DNA of 64,000 nucleotides from Loktanella sp. M215 (GTDB lineage: Bacteria > Pseudomonadota > Alphaproteobacteria > Rhodobacterales > Rhodobacteraceae), in contig NZ_WMEA01000001.1 of NCBI RefSeq assembly GCF_021735925.1, forward strand, positions 2,200,001-2,264,000, read 5' to 3'. The position numbers and the translations under genes are program-made. The notes under the pieces were generated by a model. The model did no database searches. It was not told where the DNA came from and saw only the letters and a program-made list of their open reading frames with translations. Below, one piece after another: positions 718-45,611 of the stretch (position 1 is the first letter of the stretch; every line of letters begins with the position of its first letter).

Positions 718-720
718 GCC

Positions 721-3101: not shown

Positions 3102-3113
3102 AAGGATACCACC

Positions 3114-3706: not shown

Positions 3707-4483
3707 GTGTCACGTCCCGTCATCGGTATAATCGGCAATTCGCACCTGATCAACGACAGCTATCTGGTGCAGGCCGCGGGCGACATGAACATGCAGGCGG
3801 TCAAGGATGTCTGCGACGCGATCCCGGTCATCATCCCCGCCGATCCGGCGGTCGTCGATGTGAATGATCTGCTCTGCGCCTGCGACGGCTTCGTGTTTCC
3901 CGGCGGTCGGCCGAACGTCCATCCCGAGGAATACGGCGAGGCCGAGACCGAGGCGCATGGCGCATTTGATCGCAACCGCGACCGTGTGGCCTTGCCGCTG
4001 ATCCGGGCCTGCGTGGCGGCGGGTCTGCCAATCCTTGGCATTTGCCGCGGGTTTCAGGAAATGAACGTGGCCTTCGGCGGATCGCTGTACCCCGAGATCC
4101 GCGATCTGCCGGGGCGCGACAATCACCGCATGCCCCCCGACGGCACGATCGAGGAGAAATTCGCGATGCGCCACCGCATCACCTTTACCGAAGGTGGCGT
4201 GTTTCATCGCCTGATGGACGCGAACGAGGTGATGACCAATTCGCTGCACGGGCAGGGGATTAAGGTGGCGGGCGACCGCATCGTTATCGACGGCACCGCC
4301 CCCGACAGCACACCCGAGGCGATCCATGTCAAGGATGCGCCGGGCTTTGCGCTGGGCGTGCAGTGGCACCCTGAATACAAGGCGGGGATGGACGCCGTGT
4401 CGCGTCCGCTGTTCGCGGCCTTCGGGCGGGCGGCGGCGGCCTGGGCCGACGGCAAGCGGATGCCGGTGCGCCGCAGCGCCTGA
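3707..4483 (+). CDS. Class I glutamine amidotransferase-like hydrolase (PuuD type)
   Basis: A 258-residue protein of the peptidase C26 family, which includes gamma-glutamyl-GABA hydrolase PuuD. The catalytic nucleophile is Cys113 in LGICRGFQE, and the His/Glu pair is His221/Glu223 in GVQWHPE. The GTG start at 3707 is chosen for GAAGGAG ending six bases before it. In the putrescine pathway such enzymes release GABA from its gamma-glutamyl form, but no other puu genes are visible, so the substrate is uncertain. It is preceded by 167 bp of intergenic DNA and is likely its own transcription unit. Confidence 0.88.
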   Translation: MSRPVIGIIGNSHLINDSYLVQAAGDMNMQAVKDVCDAIPVIIPADPAVVDVNDLLCACDGFVFPGGRPNVHPEEYGEAETEAHGAFDRNRDRVALPLIRACVAAGLPILGICRGFQEMNVAFGGSLYPEIRDLPGRDNHRMPPDGTIEEKFAMRHRITFTEGGVFHRLMDANEVMTNSLHGQGIKVAGDRIVIDGTAPDSTPEAIHVKDAPGFALGVQWHPEYKAGMDAVSRPLFAAFGRAAAAWADGKRMPVRRSA

Positions 4484-4687
4484 GGTATCCCGCAGACTGG
4501 CGGCCGCGCTGGCGCATGGCATCGCGGTGACAGTGCATATGCGATGCGTCCGGCAATCAGATTTACCTTGTTCTTTGCTGCTTTTCGACATGGCCTGACG
4601 CAATCTGAAAAGCACCGCGGGCAGAAAACCTCATTCTGTGATCTGCCGTCGCGCCAAGCGGCGGTCGCATCAAAAGAGGTTCATGAC

Positions 4688-5110
4688 ATGAAAACTCTCC
4701 CCTTCGCGTTTTTTGCCAGCGCGGTGATCTGCGTCACCGTTGGTATGGGTCTTGGTATCTTCATGGGTGCAAGTGGCGATCACAGTTATGCGGAAACGCA
4801 TGCCCACCTCAACCTTGTGGGGTGGGCGACGCTGGCGCTTTTCGGAATCTACTACGAGCTGACACCGCAGGCTGCCCGCACACGGCTGGCCCGGGTGCAT
4901 TATGTCGTCGCGGTCATCGGCGTCGTCATTCTGGTCCCCGGCATCGCCATCGTGACACACGGCGGAACGGAGTTGTTCAGCAGCGTCGGCAGCCTGATGA
5001 CCGCCGGTTCCATGCTGATTTTCCTGTTCATCGTCTTTCGCCACGGCTTCGGTGCCAGAGAGACGACCCGAGGCATGGCATCCGACATCCGTCCCCAACC
5101 GGCGGAGTGA
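4688..5110 (+). CDS. Four-helix membrane protein with HxHLNxxGW motif
   Basis: A 140-residue integral membrane protein with about four hydrophobic segments (residues 5-27, 38-58, 70-92, 98-122). The stretch THAHLNLVGWATLALFGIYY resembles haem-copper-oxidase subunit I/NnrS-like proteins, where His residues in the first helices can bind haem. At this length it cannot be a full oxidase subunit. It starts at 4688; an upstream ATG at 4682 is closed at once by a stop. It may respond to or handle haem or nitric oxide, but this is inference. The preceding 200 bp hold nothing recognised. Confidence 0.7.
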   Translation: MKTLPFAFFASAVICVTVGMGLGIFMGASGDHSYAETHAHLNLVGWATLALFGIYYELTPQAARTRLARVHYVVAVIGVVILVPGIAIVTHGGTELFSSVGSLMTAGSMLIFLFIVFRHGFGARETTRGMASDIRPQPAE

Positions 5111-5331
5111 AGCGCGGACGAAAACGTCCGTATCGCAAGAGTGGAAGACCGATCGGGCGCAGGCGCGGTCGGTCAATCGGCAGGTTTGCGGCAAAGGCGA
5201 GAGGCTGTTCCGGCCCCGGGTAGGACGCCGTTCCGCAGACCTTATGAAATTCCGGGATCCCTCGGGACGTCCGGCCCTTGCAAGCCGCAGCGCAGCACCA
5301 CAGTCTGCGGGCAAAGCTCTGGAGGTGCTGC

Positions 5332-6021
5332 ATGAAACGATCCCGCATCAACGACATCATGGCCGAGGCGGACGAGATGATCCGGTCCTACGGCTTTACC
5401 CTGCCGCCCTGGGCCTACTGGTCGCCGGAGGCGTTCAAGGCGCGCGCGGGCGAGGCGGTGGAGGTGATCCGGGCCCGCAATGGCTGGGATATCACCGATT
5501 ATGGCGCCGGGCGTTACGACGAGATGGGCCTTTTCCTGTTCACCCTGCGCAACGGGCGGCTGGCCGACCTGCAGCGCGGCGGCGGCATGTGCTATGCCGA
5601 AAAGCTGCTGATTTCCAAGCAGGATCAGCTGTCGCCCATGCACACCCATGTCATCAAGGCCGAGGATATCATCAACCGGGGCGGGGCGACGCTGGTGGTG
5701 GAGCTTTATGGGTCGGACGATCGGGGCGGCTTTGACGAGACGGCGGGCGGGACGGTCCTGTGCGACGGGTTGCGCCGCGACTTCGCGCCCGGCGACAAGC
5801 TGCGGTTTGCGCCCGGAGAGAGTGTCACGCTGATGCCCGGCCACTGGCACGCCTTCTGGGGCGAAGGCGGCGACGTGCTGATCGGAGAGGTCAGCACCGT
5901 GAACGACGACGAGACCGACAACATCTTTCGCGACCCCATCGGGCGGTTTTCGAAGATCGAGGAGGACGTGGCCCCCAAGCACCTGCTGGTCAGCGATTAC
6001 CGCGACTGGCTGGGGGCCTGA
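5332..6021 (+). CDS. D-lyxose/D-mannose isomerase family cupin
   Basis: A 229-residue protein with the pattern of YdaE-type D-lyxose ketol-isomerases. The metal-binding cupin motif is in SPMHTHVIKAEDIINRGG, with a second His cluster at LMPGHWHAFWGEG and the C-terminal GEVSTVNDDETDNIF. These Mn-dependent cytoplasmic enzymes interconvert D-lyxose and D-xylulose, or mannose and fructose. GGAGG precedes the ATG by six bases. It stands alone between the small membrane protein and a convergent RTX gene, with no sugar-uptake genes beside it. Confidence 0.88.
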   Translation: MKRSRINDIMAEADEMIRSYGFTLPPWAYWSPEAFKARAGEAVEVIRARNGWDITDYGAGRYDEMGLFLFTLRNGRLADLQRGGGMCYAEKLLISKQDQLSPMHTHVIKAEDIINRGGATLVVELYGSDDRGGFDETAGGTVLCDGLRRDFAPGDKLRFAPGESVTLMPGHWHAFWGEGGDVLIGEVSTVNDDETDNIFRDPIGRFSKIEEDVAPKHLLVSDYRDWLGA

Positions 6022-6030
6022 TAGACCAGC

Positions 6031-6058
6031 GCCCGGTGCGCTGGCAGGCGCACCGGGC
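6031..6058. terminator. Perfect 11-bp hairpin between convergent genes
   Basis: GCCCGGTGCGC at 6031-6041 pairs with GCGCACCGGGC at 6048-6058 around a six-base loop. It lies between the ends of the convergent lyxose-isomerase and RTX genes and could stop transcription from both sides. There is no U tract, so it is either an imperfect intrinsic terminator or an mRNA-end stabiliser. Confidence 0.6.
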
Positions 6059-6113
6059 GGGATCAGCGCCGATCCGTCACCGAGCAGAGTGACGGGGCGC
6101 GAACGGGCAGGCG

Positions 6114-9100
6114 TCAGACGCGCAGCAACTCCGCCTCGTGGCGTTTGAGGCAGCGGCGGGCAGTGTCGCCGTAGTGGTTCACGTCGGACCGCAAGTCCGG
6201 AAAGATCGCAAAGAGCTCTTCGCGGGCGGCATCGTGGATGGCAGTTAGGCCAAGTGATCCGGGGTGGAAACTCTCGGTCGCGGCGCCTTCGGCATAGACC
6301 ACTTCGTGGGCGTCGAACATCATGTGGATGTAGGTCACGACGCCGCCTGTGTCCTGCGTGACCGACAGGCCGTCCACCAGATGCTTGGCCGCGATCAGCA
6401 CCTCGCTTTCGCCGAACAGCAGTTCAGCGCGGTAGCCCTGGAACAGCATGCGGTGCTGCGGGGACACCAGCAGGTCACGCTCCAGCCCGGTCACGACGCC
6501 GGGGCGGATACGGATCGGGGCAAAGCGACCGTTGGCGGTGACGGTCCGGCGCTGGATCCAGCGGATCGGTTGCAGGCCGTGATCGCGCGTCATCACCAGA
6601 TCGCCGACCGCAAGGGTCGCGATGTCGCGCGCGCCGCGCGGCGTCGCGATGCGCGTGCCGGGGGTGAAGCAGATGATGTTGTCGAGGTTTTCGATACTGT
6701 GGAAGGTGACGAGGCTGCCGTCGGTCAGCAGGATCGTGCCAGAGGAAGGATCGCCGGGCGTATCCTCGGTCCGGCTGCTGAGCACCGCGTTGCGGATGTT
6801 GAGCGTATCGGTGCCGTCGCCGCCTTCGATCGTGATGTCGCGCGGGCCGCCGTCCAGGTCGGCGGTCAGCGTGAAGGTGTCGTTGCCCGCGCCGCCATCG
6901 ACGCTGTCGCCGCGGCCAAAGGTGATGGTGTCGTTGCCCGCACCCGCCAGGATGGTGTCGTCACCCGCGCCGCCGTCGATGATGTCGTCGCCGTCGCCTG
7001 CATCAAGGACATCGTTGCCGGCCCCGCCGAACAGGCTGTCGTTGCCGGCGCCGGTCGCGACGTTGTCGTTGCCCGCCCCGCCATAGATGGTGTCGTTGCC
7101 CGTCCCGGTGACGATCTGTTCGACTTCGGTAAAGCTGACGGTGCCGGTGCCGTCGGTCAGGGTGCCGGCCTCGGCGTCCGTCAGGGTGACGGTCACGTCG
7201 CCGGTCAACGCACTGGCGTCGATGCGGTCGGTGTCGGTCTGGCCTGCGTCCTCGCCGCCCGCGACGGTATCGGTGCCGAAGCCGTCGGCATAGACGAAGG
7301 AATCGTTGCCAGCGCCGCCGAACAGGGCGTCGTTCTCGGCGCCACCGGTCAGCGTGTCGCTTCCGGCGTCGCCGTGCAGGGTGTCGTTGCCCGCCCCGCC
7401 GAAGAGGGCGTCGTCTCCGGTGCCGCCATAGACGCGGTCGTCGCCGGCGCCCGCACGGACTGTGTCGTTGCCGGCACCCGCCTCGATCAGGTCGTCGTCC
7501 GCGCCGGTGCCAGGCAGCACGGTGTCGCCCGCATCGACGCGGTCGCCATCGGGGTCGCCGGTGTAGCCTGCGTCGAGGATGTCGTTGCCCGCGGTGCCGG
7601 AGATGGTGCCGTCCGACAACGGCACGCCCAGCGCCTGCAGATAGAAGGGGCTGGCCGCGAGGCTGGGCGAGACGCCGGTGAGCAACACGCTTTCACCGTT
7701 GGGGAAGGTCAGCAGTGCGCTGCCGCTGCCATTGTCGGTGACGGTGACGTCGTGGACGTTGACCGGGTTGCCGTCGGCGTCGGTCAGGTCCGAGACGTCG
7801 AGCTGGTCGCGTCCGGTGTAGCTGCCGTCGGGGTTGACCGTCGGCCCTTCGAAGGACGTCACCACGTCGTTGCCGCTGCCGTCCTGCAGGACCACCGTGT
7901 CGTTGGCGCCGTCGGCGGCGCCAAGGTCGATGCGATCGTTACCGGCGCCCGCGTCGATCCGGTCCGCACCCGCGCCGCTGAAGATGGTGTCGTCACCGCT
8001 GCTGCCGGTGATGCTGTCGCTGCCACTGCCGGTGACCACACGTTCCATCTGCGTGAAGGTCGCGGTATTGGTGCCGTCCGTCAGTGTGCCCGCACCGGGG
8101 GTGTTCAGGGTCACGGTCAGATTGTCGGTCAGCGCGCTGCCGTCCAGCGTGTCGCCCTGTGTTTGCCCGGCGTTGCCGCCGGTGATGGTGTCGTGGCCGA
8201 AACCGCCGAACAGCTTGAACACGTCGTCGCCGGCGCCAAGGTCCACGACGTCATCGCCTTCGCCGCCCAGAACGGTGTCGTTGCCGGACCCGAGGAAGAA
8301 CTTCTCGACCTCGGTAAAGGTGACGACCGTGTCGGTGGCGGGATTGCCGTCGGTCAGGCTGGCGGGGTTGGTGAGCGTGCCGCTCTCGGACCCTGTCAGG
8401 TTCAGGACCGTGTCGGCGGTCATGGCGCGCGCATCGAGGGTGTCGCCGGTGGACTCGCCCGTTTCACCGCCGGTGATCGTGTCGCGCCCCGTGGTGTTGC
8501 CGACGATGAAGGTATCGTCGCCGCCGTCGCCGGACAGCACGTCGTTGCCGGTGCCACCCTCCAGCCGGTCGTTGCCCGCGCCGCCGAACAGGCTGTCGTT
8601 GCCCGCATCGCCGGACAGCGTGTCGTTCCCCGCGTCGCCGTAGAGCGTGTCGTCGCCGGTGCCGCCGAACAGGATGTCTGCGCCGTTGCCACCAAAGACG
8701 GTGTCGCGACCGTCGCCTGCATAGACGGTGTCGTTGCCGTCGCCCGCCGCGATGACGTCGTCGTTGCCGGACGATCCGGGCAGGATCGCGTCGTTGCCAT
8801 CGATCCGGTCGCCGTCCGCGTCGGTGTAGCCGGTGCCGATGGTGTCGGCACCAGCCGTGCCAGTCACGGTGCCGTCGGGCAGGGGGATTCCCATTGCATT
8901 CAGGAAGAACGGGTTCTGCGCGGCGGTGACAGAAACGCCGGTCAGGCGGATGCTTTCGCCGCCCGGAAAGGTGAGGACCGCGTTGCCGGCCCCGTCGTTC
9001 GTGACGGTGACGTCGCGCACGTTCACCACGCGGCCATTCGTGGTCAGGCCTGTGACGTCCAGCCGGTCGTGGCCGGTAAAGCTGTTGCCACCGTTCGACG

Positions 9101-12100
9101 TCGGCGCCTCGAATCCGGTGACGATATCGGCGCCGAAGCCGTTGGTCAGGATCAGCGTGTCAACGGCATTGTCGGCGGCACCGACGTCGATGGTGTCGTT
9201 GCCCGCCCCGCCGGTGATCGTGTCGGCACCCGCACCGGCAAAGATCGTCTGGTCGCCAGCACCTGCGACGATCGTGTCGCCGCCCGATCCGGTGATGATC
9301 TGCTCGATCTGGGAAAAGGTCGCGGTGTTGCCGGCGCTGGACAGCGTGCCGGCCTCGGCGCCGGTAAAGGTGACGGTCGTGGCGGTGGTCAGGGCAGAGG
9401 CGTCGAGCGTGTCGCCAAGCGTCTCGGCGGTCTCGCCACCCGTGATCGTGTCGGTGCCGAAGCCGGCCTGCAGGCGGAAGGTATCGTCGCCGCCGTCACC
9501 GGACAGGCTGTCGTTGCCGGTGCCGCCTTCCAGCGTGTCGTTGCCGTCGCCGCCAAACAGGGTGTCGTTGCCTGCATCGCCGATCAGCGTGTCGCTGCCC
9601 GCGTCGCCGAACAGCGTGTCGTTGCCGTTGCTGCCGTAAAGGATGTCGTTCCCGGTCCCGCCATAGGCGCGGTCGTTGCCTTCGCCGGCAAAGACCGTGT
9701 CGTTGCCGCCGCCGGCCTGGATCAGGTCGTCGTTGCCGGTGCTGCCGGACAGGATGTTGTCGTTGCCGTCGATCCGGTCGCCGTCGGCATCGGTATAGCC
9801 CGGCCCGATCGTGTCGGCGCCCGCGGTGCCGCTGACGGTGCCGTCGGGCAGGGGAAAGCCGAAGGCGTTCAGCAGAAACTCGTTCGAGGCGGCGGCGGGG
9901 GACAGGCCCTGCAGGACGAGCTGCTCTCCGCGCGGGAAGGTCAGGACGGCGTTGCCGAAACCATCGTCGGTGATGACGATGTCGCGGGTGTTGACCGGAT
10001 TGCCCTGCAGGTCAGTCAGGGCCGTGGCATCGACTTTGTCGATGGAGGTGAAGGTGCCGTCAGGGTTTGCGACCGGCGCGTCGGCATTGACGATCGTGTC
10101 GCGGCCAAAGCCGTTGCGCAGGACCAGCACGTCGGCGGCGCCGTCGTTGCCAAGGTCGATGGTATCGTTGCCGGCCCCTGCGTCGACGCGGTCCGCGCCG
10201 GAGCCTGCGATGATCGTGTCGTTGCCGCTGCCGCCGATGATGCTGTCGTTGCCGGCGCCGGTGTCGATGCGAATGCCGCCCGTCGCGGCACTGGCGTTGA
10301 CCGTGTCGGCATAGGCCGTCGTGACGACGCTTTCGATTTCCGAAAAGTTGACGGTCGCGGTCGCGGCCTTGAATGTGACCGTGCCGGACTCGGTGCCTGT
10401 GTACGTGACCGTCGCACCATTGGTTGAGGTCGCGTTGAGCAGGCGCAGCGTGTCGATATCGGTGTTGCCCGCGTCCTCGCCGCCGGCGACGACGTTTTGG
10501 TCGTTGTCGTCAGAGACCGTGAACGTGTCGTTGCCGGCGCCGCCGAACAGGCTGTCGCTGCCCGGTCCGCCGGTCAGGCTGTCGTTGCCGGTGCCGCCGT
10601 AGAGGACGTCGTTGCCGAGACCACCGGACAGGCTGTCGTTGCCTGCCTCGCCATACAGGACGTCATTGCCCGCCTCGTCGGCCAGGCTGCCAAGGACGTC
10701 GTCACCGTCGCCGCCGTAGAGGATATCGTTGCCGACCCCGCCGTAGACGGTGTCGTTGTCGGCCTCACCGGCCAGAATGTCGTCCCCCGCGTCACCCGAG
10801 AGGGTGTCGGACCCGGTGCCGCCGGCCAGACTGTCGCTGTCCGCGCCGCCATACAGACTGTCGTCGCCGGTCCCGCCATTCAGAAAGTCGATGCCGTCGC
10901 CACCGAACAGCGTGTCGTTACCCGCATCGCCGTTCAGCGTATCGTTGCCCGCATCGCCGCTCAGGCTGTCGTTGCCGGTGCCGCCGGACAGGGTGTCGTC
11001 GCCCGTCCCGCCGGAGAGGATGTCGTTGCCGTCGTCACCGCTGAGGCTGTCGTTGCCGTCGTCGCCGAAAAGGACATCGTCCCCGGTGCCCCCCCACAGG
11101 GTGTCGCGGCCCTGTCCACCGTAAAGCGTGTCGTTGCCGCCGCTGCCAGCCAGGATGTCATCCCCGGTGTCGCCATAGAGGACGTCGTCGTCCTCTTCGC
11201 CGTTGATGTAATCGTTGCCCGTGCCGCCGTAGGCCAGATCGTTGCCGCCTCCGGTGTAGATGATGTCGTCGCCGCCACCGCCGTAGAAGACGTCGCTGCT
11301 GGTGCCGTTGAATGCACCCGGTTCGTCGTCGATCGTATCGTTGCCGTCGCCGCCGAAGATGGTGTCGTTCCCGCCGCGACCGACCAGATTGTCGTCGCCC
11401 GCGCCGCCATAGATCAGGTCGTCGCCTGCGCCGCCGTCGATGTTGTCGTTGCCGCCGGTCGGCAGAATCGTGGTGAAGCGCACGTCGCTGATATAGGCGC
11501 CGTGGTTGGTCGTGCGGCCGTTGGCGTTGATGAACTGAATCTCGATCGACGTGACGGGGCCGGGGATCGACACGTAGGCCGCACCGTTGGCCTGATCGGC
11601 TTCGTTGTTGGAGTTGCCGGCGGTGATCGTGTTCTGTCCGGCGCCTGCGCCGGTGTTCGTGACCACATCGTCGCCGTAGGGTGTGATCGTCACCGGAACG
11701 AGGGTGCCGTCAGGACCGTAGGCGTAGATGATGAACTGGTCCTGAAAGTTGTTCCCGTTCGACGTGACCATGTCGATGTCGGTCAAAAAGAAGCCGACGT
11801 TGCCGACAGCGTCCGAGACGCCGCTGGCGGGATCGGCAGCAAAGTCGATCACGGTCGTGGTGGTTGCGCCGGTCGTTCCCAGCACCTGAACGGAAGACGC
11901 CGGATTGAACGCCGTGTCGCCGTTATTGTAGATCGTGGTATTGCTGGTCAGCGTCGACGTCGTGCTGCCGTCGTCGCGGAACGAGACGCTGACGTTGATA
12001 TTGCCGGTGTCCTGCGTGAACCCGTTGCGCACGTCACTTCCGCTGGCCGCCTGATTGATCCAGCTTAGCGTTTCGGTCGTGACGGCAGCCGGCGCGGGGT

Positions 12101-12995
12101 CGTCGCCGTAGATGACGTCGTTGCCGTCACCGCCGAAGATGCTGTCGCTGCCGGCCTCACCATAGATCGTGTCGGTCCCGGCGCCGCCGTCGATGGTATC
12201 GTTGCTGTCGCCGCCGAAGATCGTGTCGCTGCCGCCGCCCGCGCTGATGCTGTCGGTGCCGGCGCCGCCATAGATGACATCCGACCCGCTGCCGGCCGTG
12301 ATCGTGTCAGCGCCGGTGCCGCCGTAGCCGGTGTTGTTGCCGTCACCCAAGGCGATGATGTCGGCGCCGGCACCGCCGGCGACACGGTCGTCGCCGGTGC
12401 CCGCGTCGATGATGTCGTTGCCGATGCCGCCGTCGACGCTGTCGTTGCCGTCGCCCGCGTTGATGCTGTCGTTGCCGCCACCGCCGTTGATCAGGTCGTC
12501 CCCGGTGCCGCCGTCGATGAAATCGTTGCCCGCGCCGCCATAGAGCGTGTCATTGCCGTCGCCGCCATAGACCGAGTCGTTGCCGTCGCCGGCATAGACA
12601 AAGTCGTTGCCGGCCCCGGCATTGATGGTGTCGTTGCCAGTCCCCGTGCCAGTTGCATTAGTGCCGCCGTAGATGACATCCGATCCGCCGGCGCCGTTCA
12701 AAGCAGCGTCGTTGCCGGTCGTGCCGTAGTAGACGCCGACGTCAGGTGCGGTTTGCACGATCACGGCGGCCAGATTGTTAGGAAACGGGGTGTTCGGCGA
12801 GAATTGGACCGCACCGCTCGTGTCGATGTAATAGGTGCCTGAGACTGTCACCAGCGTGTTATTGGTCGTTGTCCGGTATTGGACCGTACCGGTGCCAAGG
12901 GTCTGCGACACGGTGAACGTGCTGTAGGCCGACGCCTGATCGCCGCTATTCAGCCGACGATCGTTACCGATATTAAGGACGACACCATCGGGCAT
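6114..12995 (-). CDS. Giant RTX calcium-binding protein with C-terminal Hint domain
   Basis: About 2293 residues. Dozens of RTX nonapeptides (GGxGxDxLx) form calcium-binding beta rolls. Residues about 305-510 (11463-12080) are a non-RTX beta-rich insert. The C-terminal part begins at CFTPGTRIATPRGARDIA (about residue 2109) and continues to SPQHRML, the Hint_2 (hedgehog/intein-like) domain frequent in Rhodobacteraceae RTX proteins. Such proteins leave the cell by type I secretion; no secretion genes are in the window. There is no N-terminal signal peptide, as expected. Three copies of a large module each contain a LPDGTxxGTAG segment. ATG 12995 is preferred (AGGA upstream); the frame is open to a TTG at 13025. 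Confidence 0.93.
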   Translation of the reverse strand: MPDGVVLNIGNDRRLNSGDQASAYSTFTVSQTLGTGTVQYRTTTNNTLVTVSGTYYIDTSGAVQFSPNTPFPNNLAAVIVQTAPDVGVYYGTTGNDAALNGAGGSDVIYGGTNATGTGTGNDTINAGAGNDFVYAGDGNDSVYGGDGNDTLYGGAGNDFIDGGTGDDLINGGGGNDSINAGDGNDSVDGGIGNDIIDAGTGDDRVAGGAGADIIALGDGNNTGYGGTGADTITAGSGSDVIYGGAGTDSISAGGGSDTIFGGDSNDTIDGGAGTDTIYGEAGSDSIFGGDGNDVIYGDDPAPAAVTTETLSWINQAASGSDVRNGFTQDTGNINVSVSFRDDGSTTSTLTSNTTIYNNGDTAFNPASSVQVLGTTGATTTTVIDFAADPASGVSDAVGNVGFFLTDIDMVTSNGNNFQDQFIIYAYGPDGTLVPVTITPYGDDVVTNTGAGAGQNTITAGNSNNEADQANGAAYVSIPGPVTSIEIQFINANGRTTNHGAYISDVRFTTILPTGGNDNIDGGAGDDLIYGGAGDDNLVGRGGNDTIFGGDGNDTIDDEPGAFNGTSSDVFYGGGGDDIIYTGGGNDLAYGGTGNDYINGEEDDDVLYGDTGDDILAGSGGNDTLYGGQGRDTLWGGTGDDVLFGDDGNDSLSGDDGNDILSGGTGDDTLSGGTGNDSLSGDAGNDTLNGDAGNDTLFGGDGIDFLNGGTGDDSLYGGADSDSLAGGTGSDTLSGDAGDDILAGEADNDTVYGGVGNDILYGGDGDDVLGSLADEAGNDVLYGEAGNDSLSGGLGNDVLYGGTGNDSLTGGPGSDSLFGGAGNDTFTVSDDNDQNVVAGGEDAGNTDIDTLRLLNATSTNGATVTYTGTESGTVTFKAATATVNFSEIESVVTTAYADTVNASAATGGIRIDTGAGNDSIIGGSGNDTIIAGSGADRVDAGAGNDTIDLGNDGAADVLVLRNGFGRDTIVNADAPVANPDGTFTSIDKVDATALTDLQGNPVNTRDIVITDDGFGNAVLTFPRGEQLVLQGLSPAAASNEFLLNAFGFPLPDGTVSGTAGADTIGPGYTDADGDRIDGNDNILSGSTGNDDLIQAGGGNDTVFAGEGNDRAYGGTGNDILYGSNGNDTLFGDAGSDTLIGDAGNDTLFGGDGNDTLEGGTGNDSLSGDGGDDTFRLQAGFGTDTITGGETAETLGDTLDASALTTATTVTFTGAEAGTLSSAGNTATFSQIEQIITGSGGDTIVAGAGDQTIFAGAGADTITGGAGNDTIDVGAADNAVDTLILTNGFGADIVTGFEAPTSNGGNSFTGHDRLDVTGLTTNGRVVNVRDVTVTNDGAGNAVLTFPGGESIRLTGVSVTAAQNPFFLNAMGIPLPDGTVTGTAGADTIGTGYTDADGDRIDGNDAILPGSSGNDDVIAAGDGNDTVYAGDGRDTVFGGNGADILFGGTGDDTLYGDAGNDTLSGDAGNDSLFGGAGNDRLEGGTGNDVLSGDGGDDTFIVGNTTGRDTITGGETGESTGDTLDARAMTADTVLNLTGSESGTLTNPASLTDGNPATDTVVTFTEVEKFFLGSGNDTVLGGEGDDVVDLGAGDDVFKLFGGFGHDTITGGNAGQTQGDTLDGSALTDNLTVTLNTPGAGTLTDGTNTATFTQMERVVTGSGSDSITGSSGDDTIFSGAGADRIDAGAGNDRIDLGAADGANDTVVLQDGSGNDVVTSFEGPTVNPDGSYTGRDQLDVSDLTDADGNPVNVHDVTVTDNGSGSALLTFPNGESVLLTGVSPSLAASPFYLQALGVPLSDGTISGTAGNDILDAGYTGDPDGDRVDAGDTVLPGTGADDDLIEAGAGNDTVRAGAGDDRVYGGTGDDALFGGAGNDTLHGDAGSDTLTGGAENDALFGGAGNDSFVYADGFGTDTVAGGEDAGQTDTDRIDASALTGDVTVTLTDAEAGTLTDGTGTVSFTEVEQIVTGTGNDTIYGGAGNDNVATGAGNDSLFGGAGNDVLDAGDGDDIIDGGAGDDTILAGAGNDTITFGRGDSVDGGAGNDTFTLTADLDGGPRDITIEGGDGTDTLNIRNAVLSSRTEDTPGDPSSGTILLTDGSLVTFHSIENLDNIICFTPGTRIATPRGARDIATLAVGDLVMTRDHGLQPIRWIQRRTVTANGRFAPIRIRPGVVTGLERDLLVSPQHRMLFQGYRAELLFGESEVLIAAKHLVDGLSVTQDTGGVVTYIHMMFDAHEVVYAEGAATESFHPGSLGLTAIHDAAREELFAIFPDLRSDVNHYGDTARRCLKRHEAELLRV

Positions 12996-13205
12996 GCGCA
13001 AACCATCCTGTCTGGCGACAACCAACGTGGCAATCGCTGCTTTCTAGTGTTCACGCATAGGCAACAGTCGCGGCGGCATTTGGCCGTGTGTTTGTCTTAA
13101 TCAGGATGTTCAGGGTCTTTTTGCGGCGCATGGCCGGGAATATGGTCGAATCGTGGCGGCGGCTGTGGGTGTGCCTTGGAAAGGCCGCAATCGGCCTGTA
13201 TCAGA

Positions 13206-14402
13206 TCAGCCGCGGACCTGTGCCAAGACCTCTGGCAGGACGTCTTTGAAGCGGAAATATCCGGCGGTCGCATGCGGCCAGGCGAGGGCGTCGATCGGTC
13301 TGACCTGCACGCAAAGGCCGATGCCGTGATCCGAAAGTGTCCGGCGCAGATCGCCCAGCGCATCATCCGCCGGACCCGTCGGGATGTGGTGCGTCGTCAC
13401 GGTGTCCAGGGCATGCGTTCGCGCCCACGCCGCCACGTCGTCGGTCGTGGTGCAGGCGGTGACGGGGCCCAGCCGGTCCGCCAGCCGCGCGGTGCAATCG
13501 GCAATGGCGGCGGCGGTGAAGTCATGAACCAGCGGCGCCACGGCCAGATGGCTGCGCCCGGCGGTCGCCTGCAGCGTCGCCGTGGCCACGGGCGCGAGGC
13601 CGCGGTCCAGCAGCGCATCGGGGTGCAGGTCGTCTTCGGTCAGCAGAAGGCCGGTCCGCCCCTGCGTGTCGAACCGGTCCGAGACGGGGCAGGGGCGGGT
13701 CCTGGGAGGCGGGGGTCCGTCCAGCGCCGGGGCCTGCGGCGCCAGACCTTCGGGGCGAAAGGCGCCTTGCGTGTATGTCGCGATGTTGTCGGGATCGGCC
13801 AGATAGGTCTTGCCGCGGCTGTGCAGGCCCGCGACCCAGCGCCAAGACAGGGTGTTGGATGCCGCGTCGCCATCCAGCAGATGACGCAGGAAGAAATCCG
13901 CGCCCAGGGTCCATGGCAGGTGCAGGGTAAAGATCCAGATCGAGGCGAACCACATCCGCGCGTGATTGTGCAGATAGCCGGTCTGCACCAGGTCCTGCGC
14001 CCAATGGTCGAAACAGGCGATGCCGGTCTGGCCGGTGCAGGCGTCCTGCCACCGCTGGCGCAGCCCGCTTTGGGTCTGGACGTCGTTCCACGCCGCGTCC
14101 CGTTCGGACTGATAGGCGGACCACACGCCGGGGCGCAATTCCAGCCAGCCTTTGAAATACAGCCGCCAGCCGATTTCCGACAGGAACTTGCCGGCCATGT
14201 CGGGGCTGTGGCGGGCGAGGATGGCCGCGATGACCTCGTCTTCGGTGATCAGTCGGTGGCGGAGCCAGGGCGACAGGCGGCTGACGCCGGGGTGCCCCGG
14301 CAGATCGAAGTCGCGCCGCTTGGCGTAATCGCCCGCCGCATGCGGCACAAAGTCCTGCAGACGGGTCAGCGCGGCGGCGCGGGTAGGGGTCCAGTCGGTC
14401 AT
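13206..14402 (-). CDS. Photolyase/cryptochrome-like flavoprotein with apparent permuted domain order
   Basis: 398 residues. Residues 10-212 carry the helical FAD-binding domain of the photolyase/cryptochrome family: SRLSPWLRHRLI (41-52), the GYLHNHARMWFA block (142-153), and LGADFFLRHLLDGDAASN followed by SWRWVAGL (166-193). The usual N-terminal Rossmann-like antenna domain is missing. Instead residues 249-391 look like that domain moved to the C-terminus: GLLLTEDDLHPDALL, a helix/strand series, and WPHATAGYFRFKDVLP. It could repair UV lesions or sense blue light; neither can be decided here. It is convergent with nothing and divergent from clpP, with 206 bp between the starts. Confidence 0.82.
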   Translation of the reverse strand: MTDWTPTRAAALTRLQDFVPHAAGDYAKRRDFDLPGHPGVSRLSPWLRHRLITEDEVIAAILARHSPDMAGKFLSEIGWRLYFKGWLELRPGVWSAYQSERDAAWNDVQTQSGLRQRWQDACTGQTGIACFDHWAQDLVQTGYLHNHARMWFASIWIFTLHLPWTLGADFFLRHLLDGDAASNTLSWRWVAGLHSRGKTYLADPDNIATYTQGAFRPEGLAPQAPALDGPPPPRTRPCPVSDRFDTQGRTGLLLTEDDLHPDALLDRGLAPVATATLQATAGRSHLAVAPLVHDFTAAAIADCTARLADRLGPVTACTTTDDVAAWARTHALDTVTTHHIPTGPADDALGDLRRTLSDHGIGLCVQVRPIDALAWPHATAGYFRFKDVLPEVLAQVRG

Positions 14403-14608
14403 GGGGCGGAAATAACGCGCAGACCGTGCGGTTCAAGCCGCAGGGACGATTGGTTGCGCATTAGCCAAGCCTTCATTCCGGTCTGTCATGCCGGGCCGAA
14501 CGGGTGTGCTGGAATCGACTGCCCTTGAAGCCCTGCGCCGGGGTGCATAGACTTGGGATTATCCGAAAAGACGTGTGCGCGAAGGCGTCCAGAACCAGAG
14601 GCATATTT

Positions 14609-15232
14609 ATGCAAGACCCTGTCCAGACCTACATGAACCTCGTGCCGATGGTGGTCGAACAGACCGCGCGGGGCGAACGCGCCTACGACATCTTCAGCCG
14701 GTTGCTGAAGGAACGCATCATCTTCGTCAACGGCCCCGTCCACGATGGCATGAGCCAGCTTGTCGTGGCCCAGCTGCTGCACCTTGAGTCGGAGAATCCG
14801 AAGAAGGAAATCAGCATGTACATCAACTCTCCCGGCGGGTCCGTCGTGGCGGGGATGAGCATTTACGACACGATGCAGTACATCCGGCCCAAGGTTTCGA
14901 CCTTGGTGTGCGGTTTGGCCGCATCCATGGGGTCGGTCATCGCGATCGGTGGCGAAAAGGGCATGCGCTTTGCCCTGCCGAACGCCGAATTCCTGGTCCA
15001 CCAGCCATCCGGCGGTGCGCAGGGCACGGCAGAGGATATCCTGATCCGTGCGCGCAGCATCGAGCTGACGCGCGAGCGGATGTACAAGCTGTATGTCAAG
15101 CATTCCGGCCAGCCGATGGCCAAGGTCCAGAAGGCGCTGGACCGCGACAAGTGGATGACCCCGGAAGAGGCCCTTGAGTGGGGTCACATCGACGAGATCG
15201 TCACGAACCGCGATAAGGGTGACGACGCATAA
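14609..15232 (+). CDS. clpP: ATP-dependent Clp protease proteolytic subunit
   Basis: 207-residue serine peptidase that forms the 14-mer degradation chamber with ClpX. Ser106 in CGLAASMGS and His131 in LVHQPSGG are the nucleophile and base. The E. coli-type third-triad Asp (ERDTERD) aligns with Ala in QKALDRD, so the acid role may be met by a neighbouring Asp. The start ATG at 14609 gives the usual alphaproteobacterial beginning [18 protein letters not shown]. clpX follows 141 bp downstream on the same strand, the standard arrangement, with room for a separate clpX promoter. Confidence 0.97.
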
Positions 15233-15373
15233 AACAGGGGTTTGACGATCACACCCGCCTGATCGCGCGATGGCTTGCGTGATTTTGGCGTTGTGGCCTC
15301 CCCGGCGCTGTCCTAGTCTTTGTGACCAAGGACAGCGCGATACCAAAAGGCCCACGGCCGAAGGACACGACCA

Positions 15374-16642
<1,269 letters not shown>

Positions 16643-38017: not shown

Positions 38018-38093
38018 GCCCCTATAGCTCAGCTGGTAGAGCAACTGATTTGTAATCAGTAGGTCCGCGGTTCGAGTCCGTGTGGGGGCACCA
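38018..38093 (+). tRNA. tRNA-Thr (UGU anticodon)
   Basis: A complete cloverleaf: acceptor GCCCCTA/TGGGGGC with A and encoded CCA at 38090-38093; D arm GCTC...GAGC; anticodon stem ACTGA/TCAGT with loop TTTGTAA and anticodon TGT (38051-38053); T arm CGCGG TTCGAGT CCGTG. The 3' end from 38077 is the left crossover repeat of the integrative element, so the gene is rebuilt by the insertion and still complete. Confidence 0.97.
38077..38093. repeat. attL, left copy of 17-bp repeat
   Basis: TCCGTGTGGGGGCACCA at the 3' end of tRNA-Thr, identical to 45595-45611. The bases beyond (ATCATTATTG here; GCATTTCAGG at the right end) differ, which fixes the edge of identity at CCA. Confidence 0.9.
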
Positions 38094-38186
38094 ATCATTA
38101 TTGAAATCGTTATGTTTTCATGGTGTTAGTAGGGAAACCGCTACACAAACGCTACACCGTTGCGTCTTGCGAACATGAGGTTGTCT

Positions 38187-39593
38187 ATGGATTTGCCGCA
38201 CCTGAAGCTCGCCCCGACTGGCAATGCCAAGTATCGGCGGCGTGTTACGTCACCTCAGATGCGAGTCATGTTAGGACGTAGCGCTGTCGAATGGTCACTT
38301 AAAACTCGTGACCCGCTCAAGATTTTAGAAGCATGGAAAGTTGAACACGCACGGTTCGAGGCAATGCAGGCCAAGGCAGATGGCACGTCAACGGATCAGG
38401 TGGAGTGGAGCATTTTACACAGCGCAGCCGTCGCACATGGACTGGCGCGTCCAGACACCAGCAAGATTGGCCCCATTGATCATCAGGCGGACAGTGGGCG
38501 ATTCAATGCGTTCACCACGGCAGCGTTGGCAGAAGCGGAAAAGTTGACACCTCAATCGCTCAACGCGCCGTTCGAGAACAATCCCCCTAGAACTGCTTTT
38601 GGCTTACTCGCAAAGGCACAGCTGTTTGGCGTGGAGAGACCTCCTATACTTCTGAGTGCCGTGGTTCAGGCTTATCTCAAGGACAATGAGGGGCGATCAT
38701 CGTATCACGATATGTCAAAACAGGTGAAGCTGGTAGTGGACGGACTTGAACTGTCGATGGGGCGGACGGACCCTTTGCTCAAGAGCATCGATAGGGAAGC
38801 CGCCTATGCTTTCCGTGACAGTCTGACCGCCAGAGGTAACGCTCAAGGGACGGTCCAGCGACGTATTACGACAATCAAGGCAATCCTCAATTATGGTGAG
38901 AACCGCTTCGACATACTGGACTGGCGCAACCCTTTTAATAAGATCAAATTGGCCAAGGATGATGGCGCTGCTGGTGAAATCAAGCGCGATCCACTCACCC
39001 TAGAGGACATCCGAAAGGTGTGTGCCTGTCATAGTGGAATGAATGATGATGCAAGGGACATCTGGCAGCTGATGATGTTCACCGGGATTGGCCCCAATGA
39101 GGCGCGAGGGTTGCAATGGGATGAACTTCATTTGCAGGATGCGACCCCACACTTTGAAATCAAACCTAATGGGCGACGCAGACTGAAGGTGGGCGAACGG
39201 TTGCGGCGCGTACCCCTTGTCGGCACGTCCCTGACAATGATGCAGCGGCGGCATGACCGCGCTCTTAATGGTTCTTCTGACGTGTTTCCCCGATACGCCC
39301 ACCATCGCAACGCCAATTCCTTGTCGGCTACCCTGATTAAGCCAATGAAGGCGGCAAAGGTTTGGGTAAAAATACGCAAGGTGCCGTATTCACTCCGCCA
39401 CTCGGTCAAAGACTGGCTAAGACGCACGGCCCCAACCAATATTCAATCGCTCATTATGGGTCACGGTCACGGTGAGGGTCAGGTGGCGGGCGGCTATGGT
39501 GGCGACGATTTGTTGGACATGCAGGCCAAATATCTGGGGGCGGCTTTGGAGGCCAGCGGGGTAATCGATTATCCCACCATAGCAGTCCGGTAG
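38187..39593 (+). CDS. Tyrosine recombinase (integrase)
   Basis: 468 residues. Catalytic residues of the phage-integrase family can be placed: Arg307 in GIGPNEARGLQWDEL, Arg404/His405 in YSLRHSVKDWL, a His in MGHGHGEG and Tyr437 in GGYGGDD. An N-terminal arm-binding part (1-190) and a SAM-like core-binding domain (about 190-270) precede. ATG 38187 (GAGG upstream) is preferred over in-frame starts at 38160 and 38175. It is 94 bp from the tRNA, the usual position for an enzyme that uses the tRNA end as attB. Confidence 0.93.
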   Translation: MDLPHLKLAPTGNAKYRRRVTSPQMRVMLGRSAVEWSLKTRDPLKILEAWKVEHARFEAMQAKADGTSTDQVEWSILHSAAVAHGLARPDTSKIGPIDHQADSGRFNAFTTAALAEAEKLTPQSLNAPFENNPPRTAFGLLAKAQLFGVERPPILLSAVVQAYLKDNEGRSSYHDMSKQVKLVVDGLELSMGRTDPLLKSIDREAAYAFRDSLTARGNAQGTVQRRITTIKAILNYGENRFDILDWRNPFNKIKLAKDDGAAGEIKRDPLTLEDIRKVCACHSGMNDDARDIWQLMMFTGIGPNEARGLQWDELHLQDATPHFEIKPNGRRRLKVGERLRRVPLVGTSLTMMQRRHDRALNGSSDVFPRYAHHRNANSLSATLIKPMKAAKVWVKIRKVPYSLRHSVKDWLRRTAPTNIQSLIMGHGHGEGQVAGGYGGDDLLDMQAKYLGAALEASGVIDYPTIAVR

Positions 39594-40932: not shown

Positions 40933-41589
40933 TCACTGACCGACTTCAAAATCATAGTCGTAATTCTTGCCCACCAGTGCCGACCGAGCGTTCACGGCAT
41001 CAAGCATATTCGCCAGCGTATCAGTCTTAGAGAAACCTTTGCGACCGTCTGTTCCTGCAATTTGGTTTAGCAAATAGATGTTGGCTCGACGAAGATTGAA
41101 CGGATCATGATCGAGCAATTGTGCCCGCTGACCACTCTTGGCATTGGCGATAATTCTAGCGACGGCTGCACGATCCGGGCCACTTCTATTGCCCTTAAGC
41201 GGAACGCTGCAGCGCACCTGCCCCGCCCGCCTGTCGCGGGTCTTATGATTATAGACCCACGCCCCATCCGCACCGCTTTCCATGAGGTCGATCCATATCA
41301 GGAAGTCAGTTGTGGCATGACGGGTCTTGTTCGTTCGGGGGTCGTTCATCGGAACACCAATGACGAGCCGTCCATCTCCGTCAAAGCGGATTTCAGATTT
41401 ACGCCGCTGCTGTCCTGCCGTTCGGTTGACCCGACACGCAAGGTGGGTTGCAAGGTGAGCGGTGGAGTGGTGGTCGAGATGGTCAAGATATTCAGAAACT
41501 GTCGATGTTCCGTAGGCACATTGAAAACGATCGGCAATCATCTGATCGGCGGCGGCGATGGCAAAAGAGCGGGTTGATTGGTTCTGCAT
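40933..41589 (-). CDS. Unknown element protein with possible HNH-like centre
   Basis: 218 residues, mixed alpha/beta. The segment GAWVYNHKTRDRRAGQVRC...LLDHDPFNLRRANIYLL has the Asp-His...Asn-Arg-Arg-x-Asn arrangement that recalls HNH/AP2 endonucleases (DH...NNRxxNL), but the match is weak. No other domain is recognised. It is the first gene of a two-gene unit with the zinc-finger gene, their ends overlapping. Such a pair could form a small regulator/nuclease module. Confidence 0.55.
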   Translation of the reverse strand: MQNQSTRSFAIAAADQMIADRFQCAYGTSTVSEYLDHLDHHSTAHLATHLACRVNRTAGQQRRKSEIRFDGDGRLVIGVPMNDPRTNKTRHATTDFLIWIDLMESGADGAWVYNHKTRDRRAGQVRCSVPLKGNRSGPDRAAVARIIANAKSGQRAQLLDHDPFNLRRANIYLLNQIAGTDGRKGFSKTDTLANMLDAVNARSALVGKNYDYDFEVGQ

Positions 41590-41949: not shown

Positions 41950-42522
41950 TCACCCGCCCTGCAAAGCCCTGTCCTTCACGATCCGATAAACACTGGCCCG
42001 GCCTATCCCACAACGCTTAGCAATACTTGTCGCCCCGACCCCCTCGCCGTGCAGCTTGATCACTTCATCAGCCTTCGCCCTCGCCGTAGGCTTGCGCCCC
42101 TTGTACCGGCCTTTCGCTTTTGCCTTGGCGATGCCTTCCCGCTGTCGTTCCAACATGATGCCGCGCTCAAATTCGGCCACACCCCCGAGAATAGTCATCA
42201 TGAGCTTGCCATTGAGGGTGTCCGTGTCCAAGCCTAGGTCAAGTATCCGCAACGCCACTCCACGATCCTTTAAGGTCGCCAGTATCTCCATCAGGTGGGC
42301 AACTGACCGCGCCAACCGATCCAGCTTCGTGACCAGCAGGGTGTCTCCATCCCGAGCAAACTCTATCGCCTCTGCCAGCTTGACCCTGTTCGCCACATCG
42401 ACTGATGAAACCTGCTCGACAAACAACTTCTCGCATCCTGCCGCCACCAGATCACGCTCCTGCGCTTCCAATCCTGCGGTCTGATCAAGGGTCGAGGTTC
42501 GTCCGTATCCAACAATCATCAT
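41950..42522 (-). CDS. Serine recombinase, resolvase/invertase type
   Basis: 190 residues. The catalytic Ser is Ser10 in VGYGRTSTLDQTAGLEAQ. Conserved LVTKLDRLARS and MMTILGGVAEFERGIMLERQREGIAKAKAKGRYKGRK follow, with a C-terminal helix-turn-helix (VGATSIAKRCGIGRASVYRIV). Resolvases of this class invert or resolve DNA at short sites. Start ATG 42522 has GGATAAG just before it. Having both a tyrosine and a serine recombinase suggests inversion or multimer resolution within the element. Confidence 0.93.
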   Translation of the reverse strand: MMIVGYGRTSTLDQTAGLEAQERDLVAAGCEKLFVEQVSSVDVANRVKLAEAIEFARDGDTLLVTKLDRLARSVAHLMEILATLKDRGVALRILDLGLDTDTLNGKLMMTILGGVAEFERGIMLERQREGIAKAKAKGRYKGRKPTARAKADEVIKLHGEGVGATSIAKRCGIGRASVYRIVKDRALQGG

Positions 42523-43010
42523 CTTATCCAAACTGTATCAATAGGTTCTAGGCCCTGATGCCTGACTGTCTCAAAAACGTAAAGGATATTCTATTGGAAC
42601 ACTTTCAAGGTGTGACTGAGACGACTCACTGGACCATGCTCTTGCGGGACACCCCGCGTGCCATAAGAGCTAGCCTCTTCAACAGTAAACGGGGAAAGTT
42701 GCCCCCTACGTCGTGTCTGTTTTAAGTGAGGTCGTCTGCTGATGTAGCTGTTGGGGCAGGGTATGGGGGGGATTTCGTTCGCCGGTGCTATTCATGAAGG
42801 GGGCAGAGATTTCCAACCCTAAATTGAGGTTTGTATGTGAAAAACCCACCGCCACCGATAGCACTGGGGTGAAATCCAAACTGCGGCCATAGCTGACATC
42901 CATGTACCCACAGCCTATGAAGACCCTCGCGGTCTTTGGCGACCGCCATAGGGAGGTGACACTTCGCACGACTTCTGCAAAGTATCGTAACAGCAAGGAG
43001 ATAATGTTGA
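42523..43010. other. 488-bp region upstream of the GHKL gene
   Basis: No gene is convincing. It contains the second copy of the TTNAAGGTGTGANTGAGAC element (near 42603) and of AAGTTGCCCCC (near 42693), as seen near 40250. A short hairpin, AAGACC/GGTCTT, lies near 42920. It probably carries the divergent promoters for the recombinase and the cargo gene. Confidence 0.4.
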
Positions 43011-43919
43011 ATGGCCTCAATCGACCAAAACATCGTTAACCGCGTTAGGAAATTGACGAAGCCATCAAATGCAGCTCAAGCGCTCCAGCCGGTTTTTGAA
43101 GCTGTTAGTAATGCTAAGTTTGCCATTGATGATTTAAATGATCAACGCGCTGATAGCGATCAGAGAAAGGGCCGAATTGACGTTGAGGTTGGTAAGCTCT
43201 CGGATTCGTCAAAGGTAAAAATAGCGATTACCGATGACGGTATCGGCTTGGACAAAGATAGATTCGATGCCTTTCGTGTGATTGATACCGACTTTAAGAG
43301 CAAAAAGGGTGGCAAGGGTGTCGGGCGGCTGTTTTGGCTAGACAGCTTCAAAAGTATCTCAGTTTTCAGCACCTATAAAGGCCCAACTGGAATCGAAAGA
43401 AGAGCCTTCGAATTTGTTCTCGCAAATAAGGATCAGATCGTTGATCGCGACCCGGAAGCTGGTGGAATCTCGGGCCTAGGGACACGGGTAGAGTTTTCTG
43501 GGGTTCGGGGGGATCGTTATATTCAACACTTCCCCAAAAAACGCGACACATTTCTCCGATACTTTAGTGCGCATTTTATTGCCGACTTCCTCGTTGGTAG
43601 TGGTCCCGAAATATTCGTTAACATCAATGGAGATATCACAACCTATCCAAAGGCGATATCGGAGCTTGTTGTTGGTCAAAAAGTTACGATTGAGACGCCA
43701 CCACATGACGATTTTGGTATCCTGACTATCGAATGTTTTACTTGCAAAGAGGATGCAAGCAAGGGCCTCGACGGAATGCACCAGTTACATCTTCTTGCGG
43801 ACGAGCGCACTGTTGCGACAAGAGAAGTGGACAAGCTAATCGGTATCCGACGGCTCGAGGAAGGCGACATGGATGACCTAGTTTTTCACGGGTGTGTCTC
43901 CGGGTCTTTTTTTGGATGA
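43011..43919 (+). CDS. GHKL ATPase domain, N-terminal part of frame-broken cargo gene
   Basis: 302 residues. It has the Bergerat ATP-binding fold of Hsp90/MutL/MORC/histidine-kinase proteins: N box with Glu30 and Asn34 (FEAVSNAKFAIDD), G1 box ITDDGIGLD (73-81), and G2 box KGGKGVGRL (99-107). The frame ends in GSFFG with TGA at 43917-43919 right after a run of seven T (43907-43913). Removing one T joins it to the next frame to give one protein of about 689 residues. AAGGAG lies 13 bases before the ATG. Confidence 0.85.
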   Translation: MASIDQNIVNRVRKLTKPSNAAQALQPVFEAVSNAKFAIDDLNDQRADSDQRKGRIDVEVGKLSDSSKVKIAITDDGIGLDKDRFDAFRVIDTDFKSKKGGKGVGRLFWLDSFKSISVFSTYKGPTGIERRAFEFVLANKDQIVDRDPEAGGISGLGTRVEFSGVRGDRYIQHFPKKRDTFLRYFSAHFIADFLVGSGPEIFVNINGDITTYPKAISELVVGQKVTIETPPHDDFGILTIECFTCKEDASKGLDGMHQLHLLADERTVATREVDKLIGIRRLEEGDMDDLVFHGCVSGSFFG

Positions 43920-45081
43920 TCACGTCAATGAGGGGCGCACAGCGTTCACGGTTGATGAGAAAAAGCTCAAGACCCTTTCTCGTTTTTGTATAGATGCAGT
44001 GAAAAAGAGTTATCTGCCAGAGCAAATTGCAAAGTACGAAAGCGCTAGGAAGGCTGACTATCAAGAATTTGTTGCGCGATACCCAATTTATGGATTTGCA
44101 GACGAACAAACACAACTTGATAGGGTTCCTTTTGGAGCTAGGACGCCTGAAGAGTTTGCTGCTGGGTTAGTAAAACATCAGATACGGAACGAAGAAAATC
44201 GCAGAGAAAGCCTTGAAGAGATTATCGAGCTTCTAACATCAGAGAAAAATGTGCCAGAGCATTTTGAACAAACTGTTATCGAGGCTGCCAAAGACCTTAA
44301 GAAGTCTGAAAAGCTTGCATTGGCGCAGCACGTAGTAAAGCGGAAGTTGGTGCTAGAAGTTATGGAGCGTCTCATCTTAAGGGTGAGAAAGCGTGGTGAA
44401 AAGAAAGAGGATTTTCATCTAGAAAAAACCCTCCATACTTTCATTTGTCCGATGAACGTAGTTGGGAGCCGGGCAGAGTCATCTTCACATGACTTATGGA
44501 TAGTCGACGAACGTCTCGCTTTTACACAATCGTTTTCATCCGATAAGCGGCTCGATCAGGTGTTGGGAAATAATGACAGTGATCTGCGACCCGACCTCTT
44601 CCTCTGGGATCAAGCTTTTGGTTTGGGCGTGATGGATGGTCAATCAGACGGGGATGACATTAATCTGTCCGAGCCATTATCTAAAATTATGATTATTGAG
44701 TTTAAGCGGCCGGGTAGAACTTCTTATCCAAAGTCAGAGGACGATGTTGAACGGCAAGTTGTTAAATATATTAAGCAGCTTAAAGGTGGTCAGATCGAAG
44801 CGTTTGACCGGAGAAAGATCAAGGTTGCGCCCGATTGTAGGTTCTTCTGCTATGTCGTGGCAGACATAGTTGGAGACCTTGCCGATGAGCAGATGGTTGG
44901 ATGGAACCACACTGCCAATGGACAAGGTCGGATAAGGCAACTTGGAGGGGATTTAGAAGGTTCTTCCATCGAAGTGGTTCAATGGACTGAGCTGATTAAT
45001 GAAGCGTGGTCCCGAAATATGGCCACCATCAATGCCGCTGGACTGCGTCGAGGAAAATCGGTCATGGATACGTTGAAATAG
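43894..45081 (+). CDS. PD-(D/E)XK nuclease-like part of the GHKL cargo gene
   Basis: 395 residues from a GTG at 43894, read +1 relative to the upstream frame; translation probably arises by joining at the T run. After a helical charged region (about 90-190) comes HDLWIVDERLAF, then LRPDLFLWDQ (Asp at 44593-44595) and IIEFKRPGR (Glu 44698, Lys 44704), the PD...ExK pattern of restriction-type nucleases. A GHKL ATPase fused to such a nuclease fits an anti-phage or nucleic-acid-sensing role. Codon use is clearly AT-richer than the rest of the window. Confidence 0.8.
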   Translation: MSPGLFLDDHVNEGRTAFTVDEKKLKTLSRFCIDAVKKSYLPEQIAKYESARKADYQEFVARYPIYGFADEQTQLDRVPFGARTPEEFAAGLVKHQIRNEENRRESLEEIIELLTSEKNVPEHFEQTVIEAAKDLKKSEKLALAQHVVKRKLVLEVMERLILRVRKRGEKKEDFHLEKTLHTFICPMNVVGSRAESSSHDLWIVDERLAFTQSFSSDKRLDQVLGNNDSDLRPDLFLWDQAFGLGVMDGQSDGDDINLSEPLSKIMIIEFKRPGRTSYPKSEDDVERQVVKYIKQLKGGQIEAFDRRKIKVAPDCRFFCYVVADIVGDLADEQMVGWNHTANGQGRIRQLGGDLEGSSIEVVQWTELINEAWSRNMATINAAGLRRGKSVMDTLK

Positions 45082-45594: not shown

Positions 45595-45611
45595 TCCGTG
45601 TGGGGGCACCA
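45595..45611. repeat. attR, right copy of 17-bp repeat
   Basis: TCCGTGTGGGGGCACCA, identical to the 3' end of tRNA-Thr at 38077-38093. It marks the right end of the integrative element. Confidence 0.9.

Follow-up and report, generated by a model that had tools for sequence, protein, structure and literature searches.

The split gene

A 64,000-nucleotide stretch of the Loktanella sp. M215 genome (contig NZ_WMEA01000001.1, positions 2,200,001 to 2,264,000), here called the window, carries a 7.5-kb integrative element at a tRNA-Thr gene. The last gene of this element joins a GHKL-type ATPase to a PD-(D/E)XK-like nuclease, and its coding sequence is divided between two open reading frames (ORFs) at a run of seven T (Table 1). 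ORF1 has an AAGGAG-like ribosome-binding site at about 42996 and stops just downstream of the run. ORF2, a frame of 395 amino acids, has its first start, a GTG, upstream of the ORF1 stop, and no ribosome-binding site is evident in the sequence before it. The two frames are open together only across about 43882-43919. ORF1 contains the motifs Glu30/Asn34, DDGIG, and GGKGVG, and ORF2 contains RPDLF and MIIEFKRPGR. A first-pass annotation made from the letters alone had reported these ORFs, the run, and the motifs, and all were found where it had placed them. The window holds four homopolymer runs of at least seven, and this is the only one made of T.

Table 1. Features of the tRNA-Thr element and its last gene, in window coordinates
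Feature	Position	Strand	Remarks
tRNA-Thr (TGT)	38018-38093	+	insertion site of the element
Left end repeat, 17 bp	38077-38093	+	3' end of the tRNA; repeat family D9, 100%
Tyrosine integrase	38160-39593	+	phrog_1 integrase, E 5e-25; Phage_integrase, E 9e-4 (below cut-off)
Cys-rich zinc-finger-like protein, 178 aa	40400-40936	-	function unknown; weak NinG/HNH-type PHROG matches
218-aa protein	40933-41589	-	no family match
Serine recombinase (invertase/resolvase type)	41950-42531	-	Resolvase, E 3e-39; phrog_125, E 1e-58
ORF1, 302 aa	43011-43919	+	GHKL (Bergerat) ATPase domain and most of the S5-like middle domain
ORF2	43894-45081	+	end of the S5-like domain, helical linker, C-terminal PD-(D/E)XK (Shedu-like) nuclease domain
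Run of seven T	43907-43913	+	site of the frame change; unseen in relatives
Right end repeat, 17 bp	45595-45611	+	copy of the tRNA 3' end

The same genes of other bacteria, each in a single frame, match ORF1 over their N-terminal part and ORF2 over their C-terminal part. Because both align to one single-frame gene, and none of 75 invariant columns is altered, their relation lies above chance. The comparison maps the frame change between conserved Gly298 (frame 1) and Leu301 (frame 2), which is the T run, as the first-pass annotation had proposed.

Domains, motifs, and fold

The family was examined in an alignment of 53 relatives (A1), with residues numbered after the intact homologue P0003. Among the GHKL motifs of these members, Glu30 and Asn34 are nearly invariant and D75/G77/G79 and GGKGVG are invariant; the window copy keeps them. 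The Pfam domain HATPase_c is found in 52 of the 53 members (E <= 0.01). ORF1 itself matches HATPase_c (E 2e-4) and HATPase_c_3 (E 4e-4) below cut-off, and its NCBIfam matches are just of the histidine-kinase and HSP90 types, far under cut-off. The Pfam matches of ORF2 are at chance level only (E 0.06 and worse). In PHROGs, ORF1 has one weak match of unknown function (E 0.0046) and ORF2 has no match. A sequence search of the PDB gave nothing for ORF1 and one chance-level match for ORF2; with the A1 profile it gave weak histidine-kinase matches (best E 0.0021).

The predicted fold of P0003 resembles Hsp90, MutL, and MORC, and the structures with both a GHKL and an S5 domain align to residue 332-388 of the model. 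The break falls within the S5-like domain and not at a domain boundary. Hsp90 matches swamped the search with the whole model, so the C-terminal part was folded separately. Foldseek alone gave no significant match for this part. In the search with the C-terminal model, the top rows are filled by PD-(D/E)XK structures, the first four being the Shedu nuclease SduA (8ti8/8ti9 and 8ps4/8ps5), and the model thus shares the nuclease fold of SduA. E471, D528, and E563-x-K565 are invariant in A1 and in a 99-row alignment (A3). The fusion of a GHKL ATPase to a PD-(D/E)XK domain, read by the first-pass annotation from motifs, is borne out by those motifs, the conserved residues, both fold matches, and relatives that carry both parts in a single chain.

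Relatives are intact at the break

A protein search with ORF2 scored the 7997 candidates with the most shared words, under a length limit that left out longer proteins, and returned 329 proteins at E <= 0.001. Among the best 120 of these, 102 are 650-692 residues long. Identity over the aligned part reaches 88% or more in five of the listed proteins. P0003 and P0004, the latter from an uncultured Tateyamaria, are proteins of 689 amino acids with both halves in a single chain. The lengths of the remaining three are 493 (P0001), 504 (P0002), and 241 (P0051) amino acids. The contigs that carry P0001 and P0002 measure 17.8-18.0 kb. Both proteins start inside the gene, and the first residues of P0002 resemble a neighboring frame; judged from the proteins, these two genes may also be broken, elsewhere in their length.

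At the DNA level, 41 loci were collected: 24 from genome contigs (ORF2 query), 12 from viral contigs (A1 query), and 5 from plasmids. Residue 299, the break point of the window copy, is spanned by 36 of them, and all 36 read across it in one frame, which answers the check on homologues that the first-pass annotation had called for. The other five retain C-terminal parts only (L006, L010, L023, L024, and L069; L006 and L069 are apparently the same contig). Elsewhere in the gene, three of the 36 spanning loci are disrupted: L011 at about residue 170, L025 at about residue 606, and L021 through a single in-frame stop codon. L010 retains residues 480-680 alone, though its match is not at the contig end. 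Loss of the gene seems to recur at different places in these four loci, if the breaks are not assembly errors there.

The run itself appears to be private to the window copy. No run of four or more T occurs at the junction in any of 20 loci compared, and residue 300 is Phe in the window copy and Tyr in P0003 and P0004, the nearest full-length proteins. No exact copy of the 23-base stretch beside the run was found in viral contigs. The 75 invariant columns of A1 (34 before the break and 41 after it) are all kept. Residues unique to one protein number 23 in the window copy, 14 in P0003, and 17 in P0004 before the break (298 positions), and 23, 10, and 20, respectively, after it (391 positions). 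The window branch is somewhat longer, and its key residues are all kept, a pattern that fits a young break, a gene still in use, or an assembly error.

Probably a young loss-of-function allele, less likely an intact gene

The feature is real and was read correctly. Its simplest explanation is that a presumed defense nuclease of a known kind has recently lost its function in this copy, or that the assembly is in error here. The preferred reading, to which we give a probability of about 0.7, is a single-gene nuclease of the paraMORC3 type (GHKL, S5, and PD-(D/E)XK), cargo of the tRNA-Thr element, that was inactivated by a recent frame change at the private run. This was the alternative offered by the first-pass annotation, a recently broken gene, and the private run and the relatives intact across the site favor it. 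With the ATPase piece cut off inside the S5-like domain and no evident start of its own for the nuclease, the locus should make little full-length enzyme or none.

An assembly or sequencing error in the run, with the gene intact and one ordinary protein made, would also account for the locus. The break lies exactly in a homopolymer, there is no other decay in the conserved positions, and the nearest full-length relatives are intact. Against an error, the only other run of at least seven within a long ORF (C7 at 11089) lies in an open frame of 2303 amino acids, a weak point from a single case, and the family is broken elsewhere too (L011, L021, and L025, with L010 reduced to its C-terminal part), although those breaks may themselves be assembly errors. 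On balance an error is unlikely.

The first-pass annotation had raised expression limited by slippage as one possibility and had noted that phase variation by such runs occurs in bacteria; neither is supported for this gene. No relative examined has the run or the split, and on that ground programmed slippage, a phase-variable switch, and a natural system of two subunits were all rejected. A slippage signal conserved across the family is not supported because the run is absent from the 20 loci and P0003 and P0004 have Tyr there; homologues thus keep neither the run (0/20) nor a two-frame layout (36/36 in one frame). Leaky expression of this one copy is a separate matter, in which transcriptional slippage on the run would restore the frame in a minor share of the transcripts, whether or not a low dose is selected for. 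By the account in PMC6260861, E. coli RNA polymerase does not slip on T runs of fewer than seven, and T7 gives about 5% rescue in an insertion reporter. Both halves of the gene are still conserved. Set against this, the run is private, the figure for deletion-type slips in that account is for T8 only (PMC6260861), and selection against slippage is described as evident at length nine in many genomes (PMC1088944). Conserved runs of nine are discussed there as slippage signals (PMC1088944), and one broken bacterial gene is described as being rescued by way of a run of eleven A (PMC4256274). Leaky expression is improbable, and more doubtful still is its specific form, in which a run poised at the slippage threshold of RNA polymerase would be a recent, copy-specific dose limiter that keeps a potentially self-harming nuclease of the GHKL-Shedu kind down to a few per cent of the normal dose.

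In a phase-variable switch, the run would gain or lose bases during replication, so that cells of one population would differ in whether they make the nuclease; a homopolymer in the coding region of a presumed defense gene would suit this. Such a switch is very unlikely, given that the run is absent from all 20 relatives compared and that seven is short for a phase-variable tract. Least credible is a system of two proteins, ATPase and nuclease as separate subunits made by reinitiation at the overlap. The GTG at 43894 does precede the ORF1 stop, but it lacks an evident ribosome-binding site, the two parts are fused in every locus that spans the break, and the break lies inside the S5-like domain and not between domains.

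Returning to a broken cargo gene as the preferred reading, its intact relatives suggest what may have been lost. By analogy with MutL, their GHKL-S5 part would dimerize on ATP around DNA, the resulting clamp would sense some feature of invading DNA, and sensing would free the C-terminal Shedu-like nuclease to cut that DNA. ATP-driven clamping, DNA sensing, and anti-phage action are likely for this family. If the assembly is right, one private frame change suffices to lose such cargo.

The element at tRNA-Thr

The claim that the gene is cargo of a tRNA-borne element held, with the tRNA-Thr gene, the integrase, and the 17-bp copy of the tRNA end all found. The gene order is tRNA-Thr, integrase, two unknown genes, serine recombinase, the broken gene, and the repeat. 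The two unknown genes overlap, and the serine recombinase adjoins the broken gene. The GC fraction is 0.43-0.58 inside the element; outside it, the values are 0.61-0.71 at 35-38 kb and 0.58-0.66 at 46-50.5 kb.

The tRNA query has a match somewhere in all nine genomes of the genus searched, Loktanella sp. M215 included. No empty insertion site was found: the right flank does not lie behind the tRNA in seven fetched stretches, one of which ends after 3.2 kb. Among five genomes searched for the right flank, it is on other contigs in two (G001 and G003), and the other three gave no convincing match. In the stretch L049 (genome G006, about 479-15383), the last 45-47 bases of the same tRNA-Thr recur 14.8 kb downstream, and in the reverse complement of L048 (genome G004, about 450-6486) they recur about 6 kb downstream. 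These are probably other integrative elements at the same tRNA-Thr site; the window integrase has no relative in either stretch at E 1e-4.

Distribution and neighbors of the family

Among relatives the gene is rare: 101 genomes gave the window copy and a single fragment. Of 72,556 plasmid records, 50 carry homologues, Ti plasmids among them, and 27 of these 50 are predicted to be conjugative; among 50,697 phage records, one has a partial match. By record title, all but one of the 24 genome loci are alphaproteobacterial. On an Agrobacterium Ti plasmid (L030 8194-10224; NC_002377.1 117136-119166), a homologue of 34% identity sits between a gene annotated ScpB and PIN, TIR, and ABC-three-component genes, possibly a defense cluster.

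A survey of 58 chosen neighbors of 10 homologues, made with PADLOC models at E <= 1e-10 and no background control, found 37 models with matches; several models hit the same protein, so this is not a count of proteins. Among the 25 models listed, each matched one protein, and they include type III and II methyltransferases, Old, AriA, SoFic, AbiLi, HEC-01A, and PDC-S04. Ordinary metabolic and phage genes are also present. The survey weakly favors a defense role, and varied neighborhoods with some defense-type genes are consistent with a single-gene mobile cargo. In the PADLOC check advised by the first-pass annotation, neither ORF1 nor ORF2 matched at E <= 1, and the 53 relatives gave isolated single-member matches only (HamA, REase_II, and others; best E 0.019).

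Relation to paraMORC3 and Shedu

The paraMORC3 group was described as combining GHKL, S5, and a restriction endonuclease (RE)-fold domain with an E-D-ExK motif (Iyer, Abhiman, Aravind 2008, PMC2292703), and that account gives it a sporadic distribution, with a stand-alone gene subset mainly in proteobacteria and bacteroidetes. The present family shares the GHKL ATP-binding motifs, the S5 domain, and the C-terminal RE-fold domain, and by sequence E471, D528, and E563-x-K565 are assigned in this analysis to the E-D-ExK residues. It differs in that the window copy is frame-broken, and its placement is by architecture and motifs and not by the 2008 member sequences. MutL, Hsp90, and MORC ATPases have the same two-domain GHKL and S5-like module; to our knowledge, they have no PD-(D/E)XK domain of such kind at the C terminus.

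 The modeled C-terminal fold resembles that of the Shedu nuclease SduA from Bacillus cereus (8ti8/8ti9) and E. coli (8ps4/8ps5). These structures have other N-terminal domains and, as far as we know, no GHKL ATPase. The Pfam model SduA_C (DUF4263, PF14082) has no match in the window at E <= 1 and none among the 53 members at E <= 0.01. At E <= 0.001, it has no match in the genome of Loktanella sp. M215 or in 14 control genomes, and it matches 9 of 293 relatives scanned, 7 of them over cut-off. Two of the weaker matches, in L058 and L060, are below the Pfam cut-off and lie within GHKL-type frames. From 120 listed relatives of L060, an alignment of 31 proteins, its own included, was made (A2). 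One of them is named "Shedu anti-phage system protein SduA domain-containing protein," and 11 have a precomputed SduA_C domain; the other 20 have no such precomputed domain, despite agreeing motifs. GHKL-Shedu proteins may be under-recognized by the SduA_C model.

This divergent GHKL-Shedu/paraMORC3 branch, missed by SduA_C and by PADLOC 2.0.0, is probably undercounted, and its intact members would be good subjects for learning which feature of phage DNA a GHKL-S5 clamp detects. What interest the locus keeps comes from a branch that the defense models used here do not see and from a slight chance of leaky expression.

The profile of A1 has no direct match to L058 or L060. Profile-profile comparison of A1 with A2 by hhalign covers 503 columns (probability 92.5, E 5e-7). 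When only the C-terminal parts are compared, the probability is 97.5 and E is 2.8e-11, and the score is 60.9, with 12.5 the highest score in 60 column-shuffled controls. The N-terminal parts by themselves reach a probability of 25 and E 1.5e-4, and crossed N- and C-terminal pairs give nothing. The motifs E-x3-H, LW, RPD, EFKRP, and Q-x3-Y are superposed.

Among the nearest known systems is VcSduA, classed as Shedu type I-D and reported to protect against phages in a manner that needs Glu27 and Lys557 (PMC12137116). As described there, it has an N-terminal GHKL ATPase, a clamp-like middle domain, and a C-terminal PD-(D/E)xK nuclease, as this family does, and its key residues have counterparts here in Glu30 and Lys565. 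In E. coli Shedu, the N-terminal clamp is reviewed as binding DNA ends, with nicks at a fixed distance (PMC12904381). Measured against A2, which stands in for VcSduA, this family is longer (689 versus about 585 amino acids) and has 35 residues, versus 15, between the motif Asp and the Glu of ExK. Of the DNA-sensing defense enzyme limited by slippage that the first-pass annotation had imagined, DNA-targeting defense stays likely by kinship with VcSduA and paraMORC3, and the slippage does not. The family is not filed as an SduA member because it failed the SduA_C test, though it has an SduA-like nuclease fold and an N-terminal GHKL ATPase. It is filed as a paraMORC3-type relative, not a proven SduA member, that by analogy probably works like type I-D Shedu.
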